61,831 nucleotides of DNA from positions 1 through 61,831 of the forward strand of contig CANGOF010000002.1 in the NCBI GenBank assembly GCA_947455515.1. Reading direction: 5' to 3'. Positions 26,228 to 61,668 of this stretch are shown one piece after another. This DNA is from Flavobacteriia bacterium (GTDB taxonomy: Bacteria > Bacteroidota > Bacteroidia > Flavobacteriales_D > Crocinitomicaceae). Positions within the stretch are counted from its first letter, which is position 1. Every line of letters starts with the position of its first letter. The notes under the pieces are model-generated. The model was not told the origin of the DNA. It did not search any database and saw nothing but the letters and a program-made list of their open reading frames with translations. A program made the translations under genes and the position numbers.

Positions 26228-26962
26228 TCAATATTTTACTATATAATGTTCTTCAATATAGAAATCACAATAAATTTTTATAAGGTAGTATCCTGTATTT
26301 AATTCAGTTAGATCAATTTCACTTTTATTTTTTGAAATTAAAAGTATTTGACCTGTCAAATTTGAAATTGTAATTAATTCCGGAATATTATCTGTTAAGT
26401 AATCAATTTTTAAAATATTTTGTGTTGGATTTGGATATATTTTAAATTTATTATCATTAATGAATAAATGTTTTTTATCATCACTTTTAGATTGAAAAAA
26501 AAGTATATCAGATTTTTTAAAATTTGAATGTAAAAAACAAGAATTATTAAATCCATTAAATCCGTTATCATTTAATGGATTATTTCTATTAAACTGACAA
26601 ATATAAAATTGTTCAATTTCTAAATTGTTGATTGATATTATATCATTACTATACCAAGATTTGAATTCTCCTATAACTGTAGCTTTAGATATAACATTTA
26701 ATGAATATGTTAATGAAGAATCTAGATAATTAGTATTTTTTGTTGCTAAGTACATATTTGTCAAAGCATCAATAGAATAAGCTAATTCATAGTAATCATT
26801 AGAATATTTACTATTACTTCTGTTAAGTGCAGCATTATAAAAATTTTCAGCTTCAGATTTAGCTCTTATATCAAATTGATCCTGCCAATACTTAATTGAA
26901 TCACTATTAATTTGTGAAAAGATAGAATTTGAAATAAATATTAGAATAATTAATAGTTTCAT
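26228..26962 (-). CDS. T9SS-exported protein with type A sorting domain, unknown function
   Basis: A 244-residue protein with a signal peptide ('MKLLIILIFISNSIFSQ', 1-17) and a C-terminal type A sorting domain of about 72 residues starting 'FKIYPNPTQNILKIDY' and ending 'YIVKY'. Such domains direct proteins through the type IX secretion system to the cell surface. The middle (about 18-165) is helical-looking, with 'EAENFYNAALNRSNSKY' and repeated Asn/Tyr-rich stretches, and matches nothing I recognise. It lies inside the polysaccharide operon, 14 bases after the acetyltransferase and 25 bases before the sugar transferase, an unusual place for a T9SS cargo. A+T content is high, like its neighbours. 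Confidence 0.8.
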   Translation of the reverse strand: MKLLIILIFISNSIFSQINSDSIKYWQDQFDIRAKSEAENFYNAALNRSNSKYSNDYYELAYSIDALTNMYLATKNTNYLDSSLTYSLNVISKATVIGEFKSWYSNDIISINNLEIEQFYICQFNRNNPLNDNGFNGFNNSCFLHSNFKKSDILFFQSKSDDKKHLFINDNKFKIYPNPTQNILKIDYLTDNIPELITISNLTGQILLISKNKSEIDLTELNTGYYLIKIYCDFYIEEHYIVKY

Positions 26963-53900: not shown

Positions 53901-53940
53901 AAATAATAAAAGCTACCGTTTTGGTAGCTTTTATTATTTT
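53901..53940. terminator. Bidirectional terminator between htrA and the C25 protease gene
   Basis: A 17-bp perfect stem (53901-53917 with 53923-53939), loop GTTTT, flanked by A and T runs. It serves htrA (plus) and overlaps the stop of the protease gene (minus). Confidence 0.9.
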
Positions 53941-56119
53941 ACCGAACTACTTCTAATTTTTTGTTAATTTTTTGCCCCCCAAATTCTATTTGAATTAAAT
54001 AAATTCCTTCTTCTAAAAAACTAACATCCATTTCTTTGTAGGAAAAACCTTTGTAATCTGTTTTTTGAACTATTTTACCATCTAAAGTGAAAAATGATAT
54101 TTCACAATCCATTAATGAATAAATAGTTATACTATTTTGACATGGATTTGGATAAATTTCAAAATTTGATAATTTGCCATCAAAAATATAAAATTGTTTT
54201 ACACCATAATTTTGCGATGTTGCAGTTATAATAATTGTATCATTCCACTGATTTTGAGGTAATATATAATTAAAAGTATTATTTATAGTATTCCCATTAG
54301 TTAAATATTTATTCTTTTTAGAGACTCCTATTTTTAAATCTTTAATTGAAGAAACAATTTCTAATTCATTTGAAATATCGTTCAAATTAACACTTAAATC
54401 AATTGATTGTGTCAATTTACTTCTGAAAACAGTGGAAGGATCTCCAAAAAAAATCCACGTTTGAACAACTCCGTCACCATCTTTTCCATATTTTTCTAAC
54501 ATACTAAATTGACCATTATTAAACAACCCACCTAAGGAATATTTATGTACACCTGAAGAGTAATTACTTAATAATCGTACAATTTCATCTTGTGTTTTCA
54601 TCGGTGGTGCCCAATCCATTAAAATAGACGAACCACATGCCGCAATTGCTCCTGTAATTTGGTTGTTATTTTTTGCAGACAACCATGTTTCAGACATACA
54701 TTCATTATTGACAAATTTTCCATTATTACATGCAACAGAAATTACAAAAGGATAAGATCCGTAATTTGTTGCTTTTAAAATATCCGTATTATAAAAATTC
54801 GAGGTTATAAAATTATACGTATCACCGTGGCCTGTATAATTTAAAAGACCTACTCCCGAATTTAGAGCACTGATAATATCATTATTCGTAGGGTTATTGT
54901 CAGCATCATTCCCTCCTTGACTTCCATCATAAAATTCATATACATAAGAATAACCAGTAGCTAAAAGTGTATCTCTCATTTTACGCTCGTGTTGCCAATC
55001 AATTTCACCATCATCTCCAATGCCTAAGCCTTGACTAGAAGCAATTCCAATTGCTCGAGTCATCCAATCACCTATTTTTGGTGATTTCTCATATTCCAAT
55101 GTTCTCTTAACCATTGTTTCTACTTCTAACAAAGAACCAGAAAAACGACCAACAAACAATTCACTATACATATCGTTACCAGAAAGTTGACCGTAATAAG
55201 AGTCGCTCCAATATTCATCTCCACTAAAAGTTCCATAAGAGTATGAAGGGACATCTGAATGATCTCCAACGAGTAATAGGTACAACAAAGAAGGATTACT
55301 TAAATAATAATTATTAAGATATTGTTTGATTTTATCAGAGGTAGTACCAATATTTTCAATTGTTTGAATAGTTGTTTTTATTCCTTTTTGATTTTTCCAA
55401 TCTACCAATGGTTGAATGTATGCTTTAAAACTTTCAGGACAAATAACCAACATTTCTCCTTCTTCTTCTTTTGCTAAATATTTATTTTGATGCGGTTTGT
55501 AATTTATAAACTGCGAAGAAAATTCTCGTTCACCTAACATAGAATTTGTTATTGAGAATAGTTCATTTTCGCTAGAAGTATTTGTGAATTTAACGTGTAC
55601 GGATAAATTCTTATAAAATCGTAAAACCTTTGTTACTGGATTATATTGATAAGGAAACAATTTAATAGTTTGCCCTCTTAATTCACGAAGTAAAAATGGA
55701 GTGGAACACATTGCCAATTTACCTGGATAAAATTCATTTTTAGAATAAGCTTCTCCGAAAACATAGGGTTGATTTGTGGAATTTCGTTTAACCAAACCTT
55801 GTGATGGAGTAATGTCTACTAAATTATATTCTATAATAGCATCGTAACTAACTTGTAATTCATTTCCTCCTGTACCTGGTATAAGTATTGATTTTGAATA
55901 AAAAGGTAGGGCAGGAGCCCCTTTTTCATAAGTTGTGACACCAGCAAGTATTGAAAAATCAATAAATGACGTTTCATTTTCCTTAGTTTGATTGAATACT
56001 AATTCGTCAAACTCAAAATTCACTAAAATTTCTTGGTCGGTATTTTTTAAAATATCCACTTTTTGTCCGTAAACAAAAAAAAGCGTCGAAATAAAAAATA
56101 GAGAAGTTATTTTATTCAT
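53939..56119 (-). CDS. Gingipain-like C25 cysteine protease with T9SS type A sorting domain
   Basis: A 726-residue exported protease. From the chosen ATG the signal peptide is 'MNKITSLFFISTLFFVYG', and an in-frame ATG at 56134 would add 'MSSVE'. Residue numbers below count from that upstream ATG. A C25 propeptide-like region (about 30-215) precedes the peptidase domain (about 225-575), with the catalytic His436 in 'NYTGHGDTYNF' and Cys469 in 'FVISVACNNGKF'. The last 75 residues (657-731) are a type A sorting domain with 'FEIYPNPCQNSITIY', giving cell-surface delivery by T9SS. It lies 32 bases behind the membrane-anchored protein gene, in an operon with an ECF sigma factor. Cleavage specificity cannot be told. 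Confidence 0.92.
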   Translation of the reverse strand: MNKITSLFFISTLFFVYGQKVDILKNTDQEILVNFEFDELVFNQTKENETSFIDFSILAGVTTYEKGAPALPFYSKSILIPGTGGNELQVSYDAIIEYNLVDITPSQGLVKRNSTNQPYVFGEAYSKNEFYPGKLAMCSTPFLLRELRGQTIKLFPYQYNPVTKVLRFYKNLSVHVKFTNTSSENELFSITNSMLGEREFSSQFINYKPHQNKYLAKEEEGEMLVICPESFKAYIQPLVDWKNQKGIKTTIQTIENIGTTSDKIKQYLNNYYLSNPSLLYLLLVGDHSDVPSYSYGTFSGDEYWSDSYYGQLSGNDMYSELFVGRFSGSLLEVETMVKRTLEYEKSPKIGDWMTRAIGIASSQGLGIGDDGEIDWQHERKMRDTLLATGYSYVYEFYDGSQGGNDADNNPTNNDIISALNSGVGLLNYTGHGDTYNFITSNFYNTDILKATNYGSYPFVISVACNNGKFVNNECMSETWLSAKNNNQITGAIAACGSSILMDWAPPMKTQDEIVRLLSNYSSGVHKYSLGGLFNNGQFSMLEKYGKDGDGVVQTWIFFGDPSTVFRSKLTQSIDLSVNLNDISNELEIVSSIKDLKIGVSKKNKYLTNGNTINNTFNYILPQNQWNDTIIITATSQNYGVKQFYIFDGKLSNFEIYPNPCQNSITIYSLMDCEISFFTLDGKIVQKTDYKGFSYKEMDVSFLEEGIYLIQIEFGGQKINKKLEVVR

Positions 56120-56151
56120 TTCGACGCTTGACATTAAATTAATAATAGAGT

Positions 56152-57378
56152 TTACTTTCTAGTAATCATACCTTTATATTCATTTTTTTCGTATTTCTCA
56201 GGATTCATCAAAATAACTTTCCAGATATATTCACTTCCCTCAGGTACTAATTGATCGGTTTTTTGGTTTGTGCCGTCCCAAGGATTATGTTTATCTGTCG
56301 TTTCAAAAATCACAGAACCATCTTTAGGATCAATGATTAACATTCTAAAAGGAGTATCTCTTTCAAGCAACGAAAGTGGCAAGAAAGTATTTCTCTTTGG
56401 ATTAGATGAAGTAGGTTCAAATCCTGTAGGTGCTTTTAAATTATAATTGAAACTCGATTCAGGATAAAACGTCTTTGTAGTCACATTTTCACAACCATTA
56501 TGACCAACAACCTGTAAGGTTACGCTATACTGCTCTTTATTAAAAATGGAAATTTTCACATCCTCACTTGTTGAAACTACACGCTGGTTAAACATCCATT
56601 TTTGACTTTTAACGTTTAATTGAGAAGTTAAAGTAATGGTAGGGATACCATTCTCATAAATAATATCGGAGGGTAAAGAAAAGTTTACAGTTGGTTTTTC
56701 TTTCACTTCAAAAGCTGATTTCTCACCATTATTCCATGTATATTGACCTTCTTGTTTTAAAGGAATTAATACGGATTCTTGCGCATCAATTTTAATTTGT
56801 TTTCCAAAAGCATTGGTTAAAAATACATCTACATTATTAGGATTAGAAATTTCAATTTTTTCTCCTAAGCAATACGATTTATTAGTTTTAGGAAAAATTA
56901 ACGCACGGTAATATTTTTCATTCCCTTTATTATTTGGTGAAACTTTTAATGAATTAAAATTAGTTTCTGAGGTTGTCGAAGATTGTAACGGAGAAAACTG
57001 ATTTACTGAAGATATACTACTTTCCTCCTTATTTTTTTGAATAGAAAGTGATTTTTCAGAAAGCATGGTTTCATTTTTCAAGGAATTATTTTTTGCTTCA
57101 ATTTCATTTTGTTCCGATTCTATAACTTGTTCAATTTTTGATTTATTAGACACCACCAACGGCTTGTTGGCTGTATCAGTCATTTTGTATAAAGCCATAG
57201 AAGCACTTATAACAGCAATAGAAGTGACAACCCAAAATTTTGGATTAGACAAAAACCCATTACCACCCGATGGTTTTGCATCCAAACGTTGGGACATTTT
57301 ATCCCAGGCAGATGCATCATACGGTACTTCGTAGTTTTCCAGACTAGACTTAATTTGGTTTGCTATGTCGTTATTCAT
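56152..57378 (-). CDS. Membrane-anchored protein with PKD-like and sorting-domain-like parts; possible anti-sigma factor
   Basis: A 408-residue protein. Residues 1-45 form a short cytoplasmic region ('EVPYDASAWDKMSQRLD'), a transmembrane helix spans 48-66, and a long low-complexity linker (70-150) follows. Then come a PKD-like beta domain (about 215-305, 'EQYSVTLQVVGHNGCENV') and a C-terminal segment (about 310-408, ending with 'NPWDGTNQKTDQLVPEGSEY' and 'WKVILMNPEK') that resembles gliding-motility/T9SS type B C-terminal domains. The start overlaps the ECF sigma gene by 8 bases, the standard place of an anti-sigma factor. The cytoplasmic part is too short for a classical zinc anti-sigma domain, so that role is inference. 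Confidence 0.75.
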   Translation of the reverse strand: MNNDIANQIKSSLENYEVPYDASAWDKMSQRLDAKPSGGNGFLSNPKFWVVTSIAVISASMALYKMTDTANKPLVVSNKSKIEQVIESEQNEIEAKNNSLKNETMLSEKSLSIQKNKEESSISSVNQFSPLQSSTTSETNFNSLKVSPNNKGNEKYYRALIFPKTNKSYCLGEKIEISNPNNVDVFLTNAFGKQIKIDAQESVLIPLKQEGQYTWNNGEKSAFEVKEKPTVNFSLPSDIIYENGIPTITLTSQLNVKSQKWMFNQRVVSTSEDVKISIFNKEQYSVTLQVVGHNGCENVTTKTFYPESSFNYNLKAPTGFEPTSSNPKRNTFLPLSLLERDTPFRMLIIDPKDGSVIFETTDKHNPWDGTNQKTDQLVPEGSEYIWKVILMNPEKYEKNEYKGMITRK

Positions 57379-57946
57379 TCGTTATTTTACTATATTTTTT
57401 AACTATTATTTTCTGTAAATTCGCTTTTGCTTTTGCAAGATTTGATTTTGATGTACCTTCAGAAATTCCAAGCATATCAGCTATTTCTTTATGTGTATAT
57501 TCTTCCATTACAAAAAGATTAAAAACTGTTTTATAAGCAGGAGAAAGTTGATTAATCGCTTCCAATGCAAACTCGGCTTTAATTTCTAATGAGCTTTCAT
57601 ATTCTAATTCATCACCATCCTCCACATATTCCTCCTTAGTATTCACTTCATTTTCTTCCACAAAACTGAATTTCTTTGATCTCCTAAGGTAATCTAATGC
57701 TGTATTTGTAACAATACGTCTCATCCAACCTTCAAAAGATCCATTCGATTCAAAAGTTGTAATTTTATCAAAAATCTTTATAAAGCCTTCTTGTAAAATA
57801 TCCTGAGCAGCGTCCCTATCATTTGTATATCGCATACATACAACCATCAATTTACCATAGTAAAGTTTAAATAACTTTTCTTGGTTTACTCGATCGTTTT
57901 TGAGACAACCTACAACAATACTATCCAACTGCTCTTTCTTTTCCAC
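57371..57946 (-). CDS. ECF-type RNA polymerase sigma factor
   Basis: A 191-residue group IV sigma factor. Sigma region 2 ('FKLYYGKLMVVCMRYTNDRD', 'ILQEGFIKIF' and 'GWMRRIVTNTALDYLRR', about 25-100) and region 4 ('LSPAYKTVFNLFVMEEYTHK', 'EIADMLGISEGTSKSNLAKA', about 130-180) are separated by an acidic linker, with no other domain. It directs RNA polymerase to envelope or surface genes. The next gene overlaps by 8 bases and the C25 protease follows, so they form one unit. TAATTTTA on the minus strand (57999-57992) is a possible -7 box for the operon. Confidence 0.93.
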   Translation of the reverse strand: MEKKEQLDSIVVGCLKNDRVNQEKLFKLYYGKLMVVCMRYTNDRDAAQDILQEGFIKIFDKITTFESNGSFEGWMRRIVTNTALDYLRRSKKFSFVEENEVNTKEEYVEDGDELEYESSLEIKAEFALEAINQLSPAYKTVFNLFVMEEYTHKEIADMLGISEGTSKSNLAKAKANLQKIIVKKYSKITNE

Positions 57947-58064
57947 CTTCGTGCTATAGTAACTTGACGTGACTTAATTTAATTAGTTGCCTAAAATTAA
58001 ATGTTTTTCTAAGATTAACTTAAAAAATATATAATAAAAAATAGATTCTATTAGTCAATTGTTT

Positions 58065-61074: not shown

Positions 61075-61668
61075 ATGTTTAGTACATTGGATGATTCCGT
61101 TTTAGTGAATCAATATATTTCAGGCGATGAAAAATCATTAGAAATTCTTTTAAAAAAATACAAACGTATTATTTTTAAAACTATTGTTTCAAAAGTAAAA
61201 TCAACTGAATTGGCAGAAGATTTATTTCAAGATACCTTTATAAAAATTATCAATACTTTAAAAACAGGGAAATACAATGAAGAAGGAAAATTTCTTCCTT
61301 GGGCATTACGAATTGCTAACAATCTTATAATTGATTATTTCCGTAAAAACAATTCTAGAAAAATGGTTTCTGAATCATCCTCTAGTTCCGACTCTTTCAA
61401 TATTTTCACTCACATGGAATGTGATTCTACCCCTTGGATTCACCAAGTGATGCAAAATGAACTCTATCAAGAATTACTTAATGGTATTGAATTTCTTCCA
61501 GCAGCACAAAGAGAATTAATTGAAATGCGAATCTTTCAAGGAATGTCCTTTAAAGACATCGCTGAAGAGAAAGAAATCAGTATAAACACAGCATTAGGTA
61601 GAATGCGTTATGCAATTCAAAACTTACGCAAAATGATGGAAGAAAAAAATGTTTTGATTGAAATATAA
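61075..61668 (+). CDS. ECF-type RNA polymerase sigma factor (second)
   Basis: A 197-residue group IV sigma factor. Region 2 has 'LLKKYKRIIFKTIVSKVKST', 'AEDLFQDTFIKIINTL' and 'WALRIANNLIIDYFRK', and region 4 has 'LPAAQRELIEMRIFQGMSFK' and 'DIAEEKEISINTALGRMRYA'. It is encoded alone here, without a recognisable anti-sigma gene before the window ends. The linker between regions is serine-rich ('SESSSSSDSF'). It shares little beyond the fold with the sigma factor at 57.4-57.9 kb. Regulon unknown. Confidence 0.93.
   Translation: MFSTLDDSVLVNQYISGDEKSLEILLKKYKRIIFKTIVSKVKSTELAEDLFQDTFIKIINTLKTGKYNEEGKFLPWALRIANNLIIDYFRKNNSRKMVSESSSSSDSFNIFTHMECDSTPWIHQVMQNELYQELLNGIEFLPAAQRELIEMRIFQGMSFKDIAEEKEISINTALGRMRYAIQNLRKMMEEKNVLIEI

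Follow-up and report, generated by a model that had tools for sequence, protein, structure and literature searches.

A putative ECF sigma/anti-sigma pair with a sorting-type domain, conserved in Flavobacteriales and linked to type IX secretion genes

The stretch of DNA analysed here, referred to as the window, comprises 61,831 nucleotides (positions 1 to 61,831 of contig CANGOF010000002.1, assembly GCA_947455515.1) from a Flavobacteriia bacterium of the Crocinitomicaceae. It carries a gene for an extracytoplasmic function (ECF) sigma factor, designated SIG, followed by a gene for a membrane-anchored protein, designated MID. We consider it probable that SIG and MID form a cognate sigma/anti-sigma pair through which transcription responds to the condition of the type IX secretion system (T9SS). 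Below, g1 denotes the genus of the window, G000 its genome and L-numbers individual loci of relatives. The locus is composed of the following main elements:

57371-57946, minus strand: SIG, ECF sigma factor, 191 aa, GTG start (Sigma70_r2 1e-16, Sigma70_r4_2 3e-15, TIGR02937 1e-30)
56152-57378, minus strand: MID, 408 aa, single-pass membrane protein, anti-sigma-like, with a CHU_C-like C-terminus (from an AlphaFold 2 (AF2) model and orthologs beside SIG)
53939-56134, minus strand: C25 gingipain-like cysteine protease, 731 aa, with a propeptide and a T9SS type A tail (Pfam)
57966-57991, minus strand: putative ECF-type autoregulatory promoter GGCAAC-N16-CGTC, -35 element GGCAAC at 57991-57986, -10 element CGT at 57969-57967

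The reading frames of SIG and MID overlap by 8 bp and the C25 gene starts 17 bp downstream of the MID end. An initial annotation of this DNA had described three minus-strand reading frames at 53939-57946, and their coordinates, the overlap and the short gap were all reproduced. Its assignment of the first gene to the ECF sigma factors was borne out by the Pfam matches to Sigma70_r2 and Sigma70_r4; the family models of Pfam and NCBIfam gave general ECF matches, plus TIGR02985 under its cut-off. MID indeed occupies the usual position of an anti-sigma gene, directly beside SIG.

SIG and MID occur as a conserved pair across the Flavobacteriales as a whole. SIG and MID were adjacent in all of the first 36 neighbourhoods that were fetched, and in most of these a divergent malate dehydrogenase gene (mdh) adjoined the pair. 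Relatives of MID were present in 58 of 59 genomes of the order, many of the weaker matches being CHU_C cargo proteins, and MID-like frames of 360-530 aa were counted by eye in at least 125 of 150 drawn genomes of the order, representing 11 families. PorG was found in 150/150 of these genomes, so that the sample contained no T9SS-less genome with which co-occurrence of MID and the T9SS could be compared. The conservation does not extend to the protease. The initial annotation had raised the possibility that all three genes stay together across Flavobacteriales, and the trio had to be rejected as a conserved unit: the C25 gene directly follows SIG-MID only in g1; in G026 a single gene separates it from the pair. 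Because the pair is found order-wide and C25 adjoins it only in g1, the circuit is not centred on export of the C25 protease. In other families the next gene often encodes a giant T9SS-type protein; examples are a SprB-repeat protein of 2480 aa, an M4 protease bearing a type A tail, and CHU_C proteins whose lengths range from 1166 to 2587 aa. At L058, L060 and L061 (G022, G019 and G034) a gene for a SiaC family regulatory phosphoprotein (identified by Pfam for L058) separates MID from the gene of an M4 protease that carries PKD, CUB and T9SS tail domains.

MID can be divided into five parts:

57274-57378, minus strand: residues 1-35, cytoplasmic two-helix motif of anti-sigma type (ENYEVPYDASAWDKMSQRLD), 41% mean pairwise identity in orthologs
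57184-57243, minus strand: residues 46-65, transmembrane helix (AF2 helix; the top hydrophobic window begins at residue 48)
56908-57177, minus strand: residues 68-157, disordered periplasmic tether (predicted local distance difference test (pLDDT) <50; 12% identity, 40% gaps)
56464-56883, minus strand: residues 166-305, two immunoglobulin (Ig)/PKD-like domains (high pLDDT; PKD match; PKD_4 in ortholog L170)
56155-56463, minus strand: residues 306-408, degenerate CHU_C domain resembling a T9SS type B C-terminal domain (CTD), assigned from the CHU_C score and conservation

In the AF2 model, helices 4-14 and 22-32 precede the membrane helix (46-65) and the beta domains of residues 166-408 are predicted with confidence. 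The stretch ahead of the membrane helix is 45 residues long. Orthologs likewise have a conserved soluble segment of some 40-50 residues ahead of the helix, which speaks for a membrane anchor, as originally proposed, rather than a cleaved signal peptide. The initial annotation had also given MID PKD-like and type B-like C-terminal parts. The former stands, together with the 45-residue start and the membrane helix; the latter is degenerate in g1, though canonical in orthologs. In the window CHU_C was the sole Pfam match to MID and scored 19.4 bits (E 0.0012), below the Pfam cut-off of 27, so that MID of the window falls short of a T9SS type B cargo protein by this measure. Ortholog L170, by contrast, reached 55.2 bits with CHU_C and 94 bits with PKD_4. 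Since orthologs score far over the cut-off, the type B reading is correct for the MID family and the domain has degenerated in g1. In keeping with this, the CTD of g1 lacks the NGDG..ND signature, while deeper lineages such as that of L170 retain the canonical form. An NCBIfam scan assigned MID to no family. Fold searches of the PDB with MID returned generic Ig/PKD matches (PKD domains fitted residues 225-309 best, Z 9.1), with no T9SS CTD standing out.

Conservation is distributed very unevenly along the protein. Mean pairwise identity across MID orthologs was 45% in the CTD and 41% in the N-terminal motif, compared with 19-25% in the Ig domains and 12% in the tether. The CTD and the N-terminal motif are thus the best conserved parts, which indicates a function at both ends of MID.

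It had been noted that MID lacks a classical anti-sigma domain, and no domain listed as such in Pfam is present. Residues 1-35 nevertheless form a conserved Bacteroidota motif of anti-sigma type, with the consensus LE.YE.PYD..AW..M..KLD, in which Y20 and W25 are invariant. This motif occurs in tandem copies in the MID orthologs L049, L058, L060 and L062, and the proteins encoded after related sigma genes in Chitinophagaceae have 2-4 copies of a similar motif (YEVTPPAGAWNNI..ELD). A profile-profile comparison of the MID motif with the Chitinophagaceae repeats gave a probability of 93.7 and an E-value of 2e-7. At locus L212 the motif is fused to a weak match to the beta-barrel family OMP_b-brl_2. 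Because the motif is common to MID and the Chitinophagaceae sigma partners, and because L212 combines it with a barrel-like end, the most likely role of MID is that of an anti-sigma factor with the layout of the Dma proteins discussed below and a different outer end; as such it would inhibit SIG. Anti-sigma-like proteins with two to four tandem W-motifs ahead of a membrane helix were seen in Niabella and other Chitinophagaceae (L174, L180, L188, L189, L193, L201 and others), where they adjoin a close relative of SIG that has no GGCAAC promoter.

Upstream of SIG we found a sequence with the appearance of an ECF promoter. The pattern RGCAAC-N16-CGTY, with a spacing of exactly 16 nt, precedes SIG in 31/31 readable loci across families of the order; in six further SIG loci no motif lay within the stretch that was read, in several of them because the start codon had been set too early. 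Among named loci sorted by the partner of SIG, the motif was present in 44/52 with a CHU_C-type partner versus 3/23 with other partners (Fisher 4e-9, uncorrected for kinship), and those three are short or broken frames. The invariance of the motif before SIG orthologs and its rarity with non-CHU_C partners are what autoregulation would predict, and SIG presumably reads GGCAAC-N16-CGT sites itself. It might be objected that another ECF factor or regulator reads these sites and controls SIG and the cargo genes alike, as the genome encodes further ECF factors, for example at 61075-61668 of the window. The distribution of the motif just described makes this improbable.

If SIG recognises this motif, other genes that bear it should reveal its targets. 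Candidate regulon sites were defined as strict-pattern matches in five g1 genomes, taken from pattern matches and fetched stretches. Intergenic sites lay mostly 9-60 bp ahead of genes for secreted proteins. The start of a giant CHU_C frame was found at 11/57 motif sites in the five genomes (expected 0.087; Poisson 5e-20), a test that assumes random placement and counts orthologs in related genomes separately, as does the next one. Sites with the wrong flanks in G000, used as a control, coincided with giant CHU_C starts in 0/34 cases. In five other genera, two other families among them, the corresponding figure was 6/57 sites (expected 0.13; Poisson 7e-9). As the length of each frame served to estimate where it starts, some sites counted near CHU_C genes may fall inside the start of the gene (e.g. 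G026:C8). Type A cargo genes are also preceded by motif sites (L099, L117 and L121). Besides cargo, the motif stands ahead of porG in 5/6 g1 genomes. The product of this gene is a DUF6089 protein that matches the NCBIfam equivalog T9SS_PorG with 163.7 bits, and PorG is an essential T9SS component (PMC12635249).

These placements suggest that the apparent regulon consists of T9SS cargo and, in g1, porG, and not of one protease. The initial annotation had pictured a circuit that senses T9SS export or surface proteolysis and tunes export of the protease. Its T9SS link is supported because the SIG promoter motif precedes T9SS cargo genes and porG; its focus on the protease does not survive the restriction of C25 to g1.

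We propose the following mechanism. MID would reside in the inner membrane, where its cytoplasmic two-helix motif would hold SIG. The flexible tether of 90 residues could span the periplasm and present the Ig-like domains and the type B CTD-like end near the outer membrane. If the CTD-like domain were engaged by, or released from, an outer-membrane component of the T9SS, or if MID were cut, SIG would be freed. Free SIG would then transcribe its own operon from GGCAAC-N16-CGTY and switch on the giant type B cargo genes and, in g1, porG. In g1 the C25 protease would have been added downstream and would be raised with the operon. The proposal builds on computed features, namely the genes, their architecture and conservation, and the promoter motif and its placement; its weakest step is the role of the CTD-like domain as a sensor of export. 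Sensing of export or proteolysis by this domain fits, as the CTD is the best conserved outer domain of MID. In the most specific form of the proposal, the CTD-like end binds to part of the T9SS (translocon, carrier or an SprF-like partner) and in this way gauges free export capacity, and MID directly gates transcription of cargo genes and porG; we put this form forward tentatively, as one that is rather more likely to be wrong than right.

Several points weigh against a T9SS-coupled SIG-MID pair. The contact between SIG and MID and the inhibition of the one by the other are deduced from sequence and gene position, and another ECF factor of the genome could read the motif instead. Recognition of the g1 CTD by the T9SS is uncertain because the NGDG..ND signature has been lost and the score lies under the Pfam cut-off, and the PDB matches of MID are of a generic Ig fold. 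Only about 9% of CHU_C genes bear the motif, and the Poisson values are subject to the assumptions given with them. Finally, porG was rejected as an order-wide target, since the strict motif stands before it only in g1.

Some of these points could be accommodated if MID were the anti-sigma factor of SIG with a merely borrowed CTD fold, acting as a generic sensor of envelope stress or the outer surface that makes no contact with the T9SS and has cargo as one output. The degenerate CTD of g1 and the commonness of Ig folds are compatible with such a sensor, and the Dma anti-sigma factors have the same layout with no CTD (PMC13088901). Yet the CTD is the best conserved part of MID and canonical in deeper lineages (L170), and the promoter motif marks CHU_C genes. 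We therefore regard a generic sensor as unlikely, though worth keeping in mind, and prefer a pair that responds to the T9SS.

The gene that completes the locus in g1 answers in all respects to the earlier description of a gingipain-like C25 protease with a T9SS type A domain. It showed Pfam matches to Propeptide_C25 (6e-34), Peptidase_C25 (3e-57) and Por_Secre_tail (1e-10), and the His/Cys pair of the family is kept in the catalytic domain (H436 in GHG, C469 in VACNNG). With 731 aa it was rejected as PorU, the T9SS sortase of about 1100 aa or more; a separate C25 frame of 1148 aa is present at G000:C8. No SIG motif of its own was found for C25, and we infer that it is co-transcribed with SIG-MID because the gaps are short (0-22 bp). 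The presence of the protease gene beside MID in g1, together with the CTD-like end of MID, could be taken to mean that C25 or another protease cuts MID, which is then released through the T9SS like cargo, its export freeing SIG. This would be hard to reconcile with the lack of C25 at the locus in other lineages and of a cleavable signal peptide in MID, and we think it quite improbable.

Two predicted RNA structures lie at the ends of the C25 gene:

56081-56129, minus strand: RNA hairpin over the C25 start region, arms AAGCGTCGAAATGAA / TTTATTTCGACGCTT
53902-53938, minus strand: putative terminator, inverted repeat AATAATAAAAGCTACC-AAAAC-GGTAGCTTTTATTATT directly past the C25 stop codon, read from the sequence itself

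The inverted repeat is likely to be the terminator of the operon. The hairpin at the C25 start was equalled by 0/100 shuffles, and its position is kept in loci L002, L003, L004, L005 and L006. Stems of 13-16 bp with a different sequence occupy it in G008, G010 and G004, and weaker stems in G001 and G005; the hairpin was not evident in more distant g1 members. In the five relatives that are in register, 96.9% of hairpin cells pair as against 37-54% in slid controls, and two pairs have changed on both sides in a compensatory manner. Rfam gave no match in the locus, the hairpin included. A role in the control of C25 translation, which the hairpin may tune, or as a partial transcription stop is possible.

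Some further features were noted. The second ECF sigma gene of the window (61075-61668, plus strand, 197 aa) lies at the extreme end of the contig, where its neighbour is cut off. A protein with a Por_Secre_tail (T9SS type A, 40 bits) is encoded at 26228-26962 on the minus strand, within a run of surface-polysaccharide genes at about 26-43 kb. The public record titles of L134, L136, L139, L153 and L156 are at odds with their Crocinitomicaceae-like content; examples of such misfitting titles are Chitinophaga pinensis, Chryseobacterium gleum, Kuenenia, Polynucleobacter and Glaciecola.

How does the SIG-MID pair relate to known systems? The Dma anti-sigma factors of Bacteroides have a layout that ends in an outer-membrane beta-barrel (PMC13088901). 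As in these, the ECF gene stands beside the anti-sigma gene, and MID is modelled with a short N-terminal, putatively sigma-binding part, one transmembrane helix, a long disordered tether and a folded outer C-terminal part. However, the outer end of MID consists of Ig/PKD-like domains and a CHU_C domain instead of a beta-barrel, and the apparent SIG regulon comprises T9SS cargo and porG, whereas that of Dma comprises vesiculation genes and genes of polysaccharide utilization loci. Dma factors are further characterised by a cognate sigma factor of group ECF21, which becomes active when the anti-sigma gene is deleted; the matches of SIG were to general ECF models. In Porphyromonas gingivalis the T9SS is controlled by PorXY-SigP-PorA, in which the response regulator PorX activates SigP (PMC7712824). 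Both systems feature an autoregulated ECF factor tied to T9SS genes and a CTD-bearing protein acting upstream, but no anti-sigma factor has been described for SigP, and PorA is a separate surface protein confined to Porphyromonas (PMC7712824), while here the putative anti-sigma factor has the CTD-like domain within its own chain.

The SM6 promoter class of Flavobacterium psychrophilum includes an ECF/anti-sigma pair (THC0290_1774/1773), PorU, GldN and a homolog of PorG (PG0189) (PMC9723704). Like the SIG motif it has an ECF-type -10 CGT box and drives a PorG homolog and an ECF/anti-sigma pair; the main targets of the SIG motif, in contrast, are CHU_C cargo genes. The SM6 regulon agrees indirectly with our reading of SIG-MID, the two pairs being at most candidate orthologs; a search of genome contigs with a SIG alignment returned close relatives and Chitinophagaceae, F. 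psychrophilum not being among them. MID also resembles T9SS type B cargo in its PKD-like domains and C-terminal CHU_C-like domain but differs from it by having a cytoplasmic N-terminus and a membrane anchor and no signal peptide. Neither the pairing of a sigma factor with an anti-sigma factor nor the Dma layout is new; what is apparently new is a T9SS sorting-type domain on an anti-sigma factor: in the open-licence literature we found no anti-sigma factor that combines such a domain with a regulon made up of T9SS cargo and a component of the T9SS.

It is an open question how Bacteroidota adjust the synthesis of giant surface proteins to the amount that the T9SS can export, and the best-known T9SS regulator, PorXY-SigP, has been described for Porphyromonas. 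SIG-MID would offer a simple feedback loop from export to expression across Flavobacteriales. It also indicates that the Dma-like layout accepts different outer sensors. If the CTD-like end does dock on the T9SS, MID would be the first example of an anti-sigma factor that a sorting-type domain connects to this secretion system, and one common to most Flavobacteriales.

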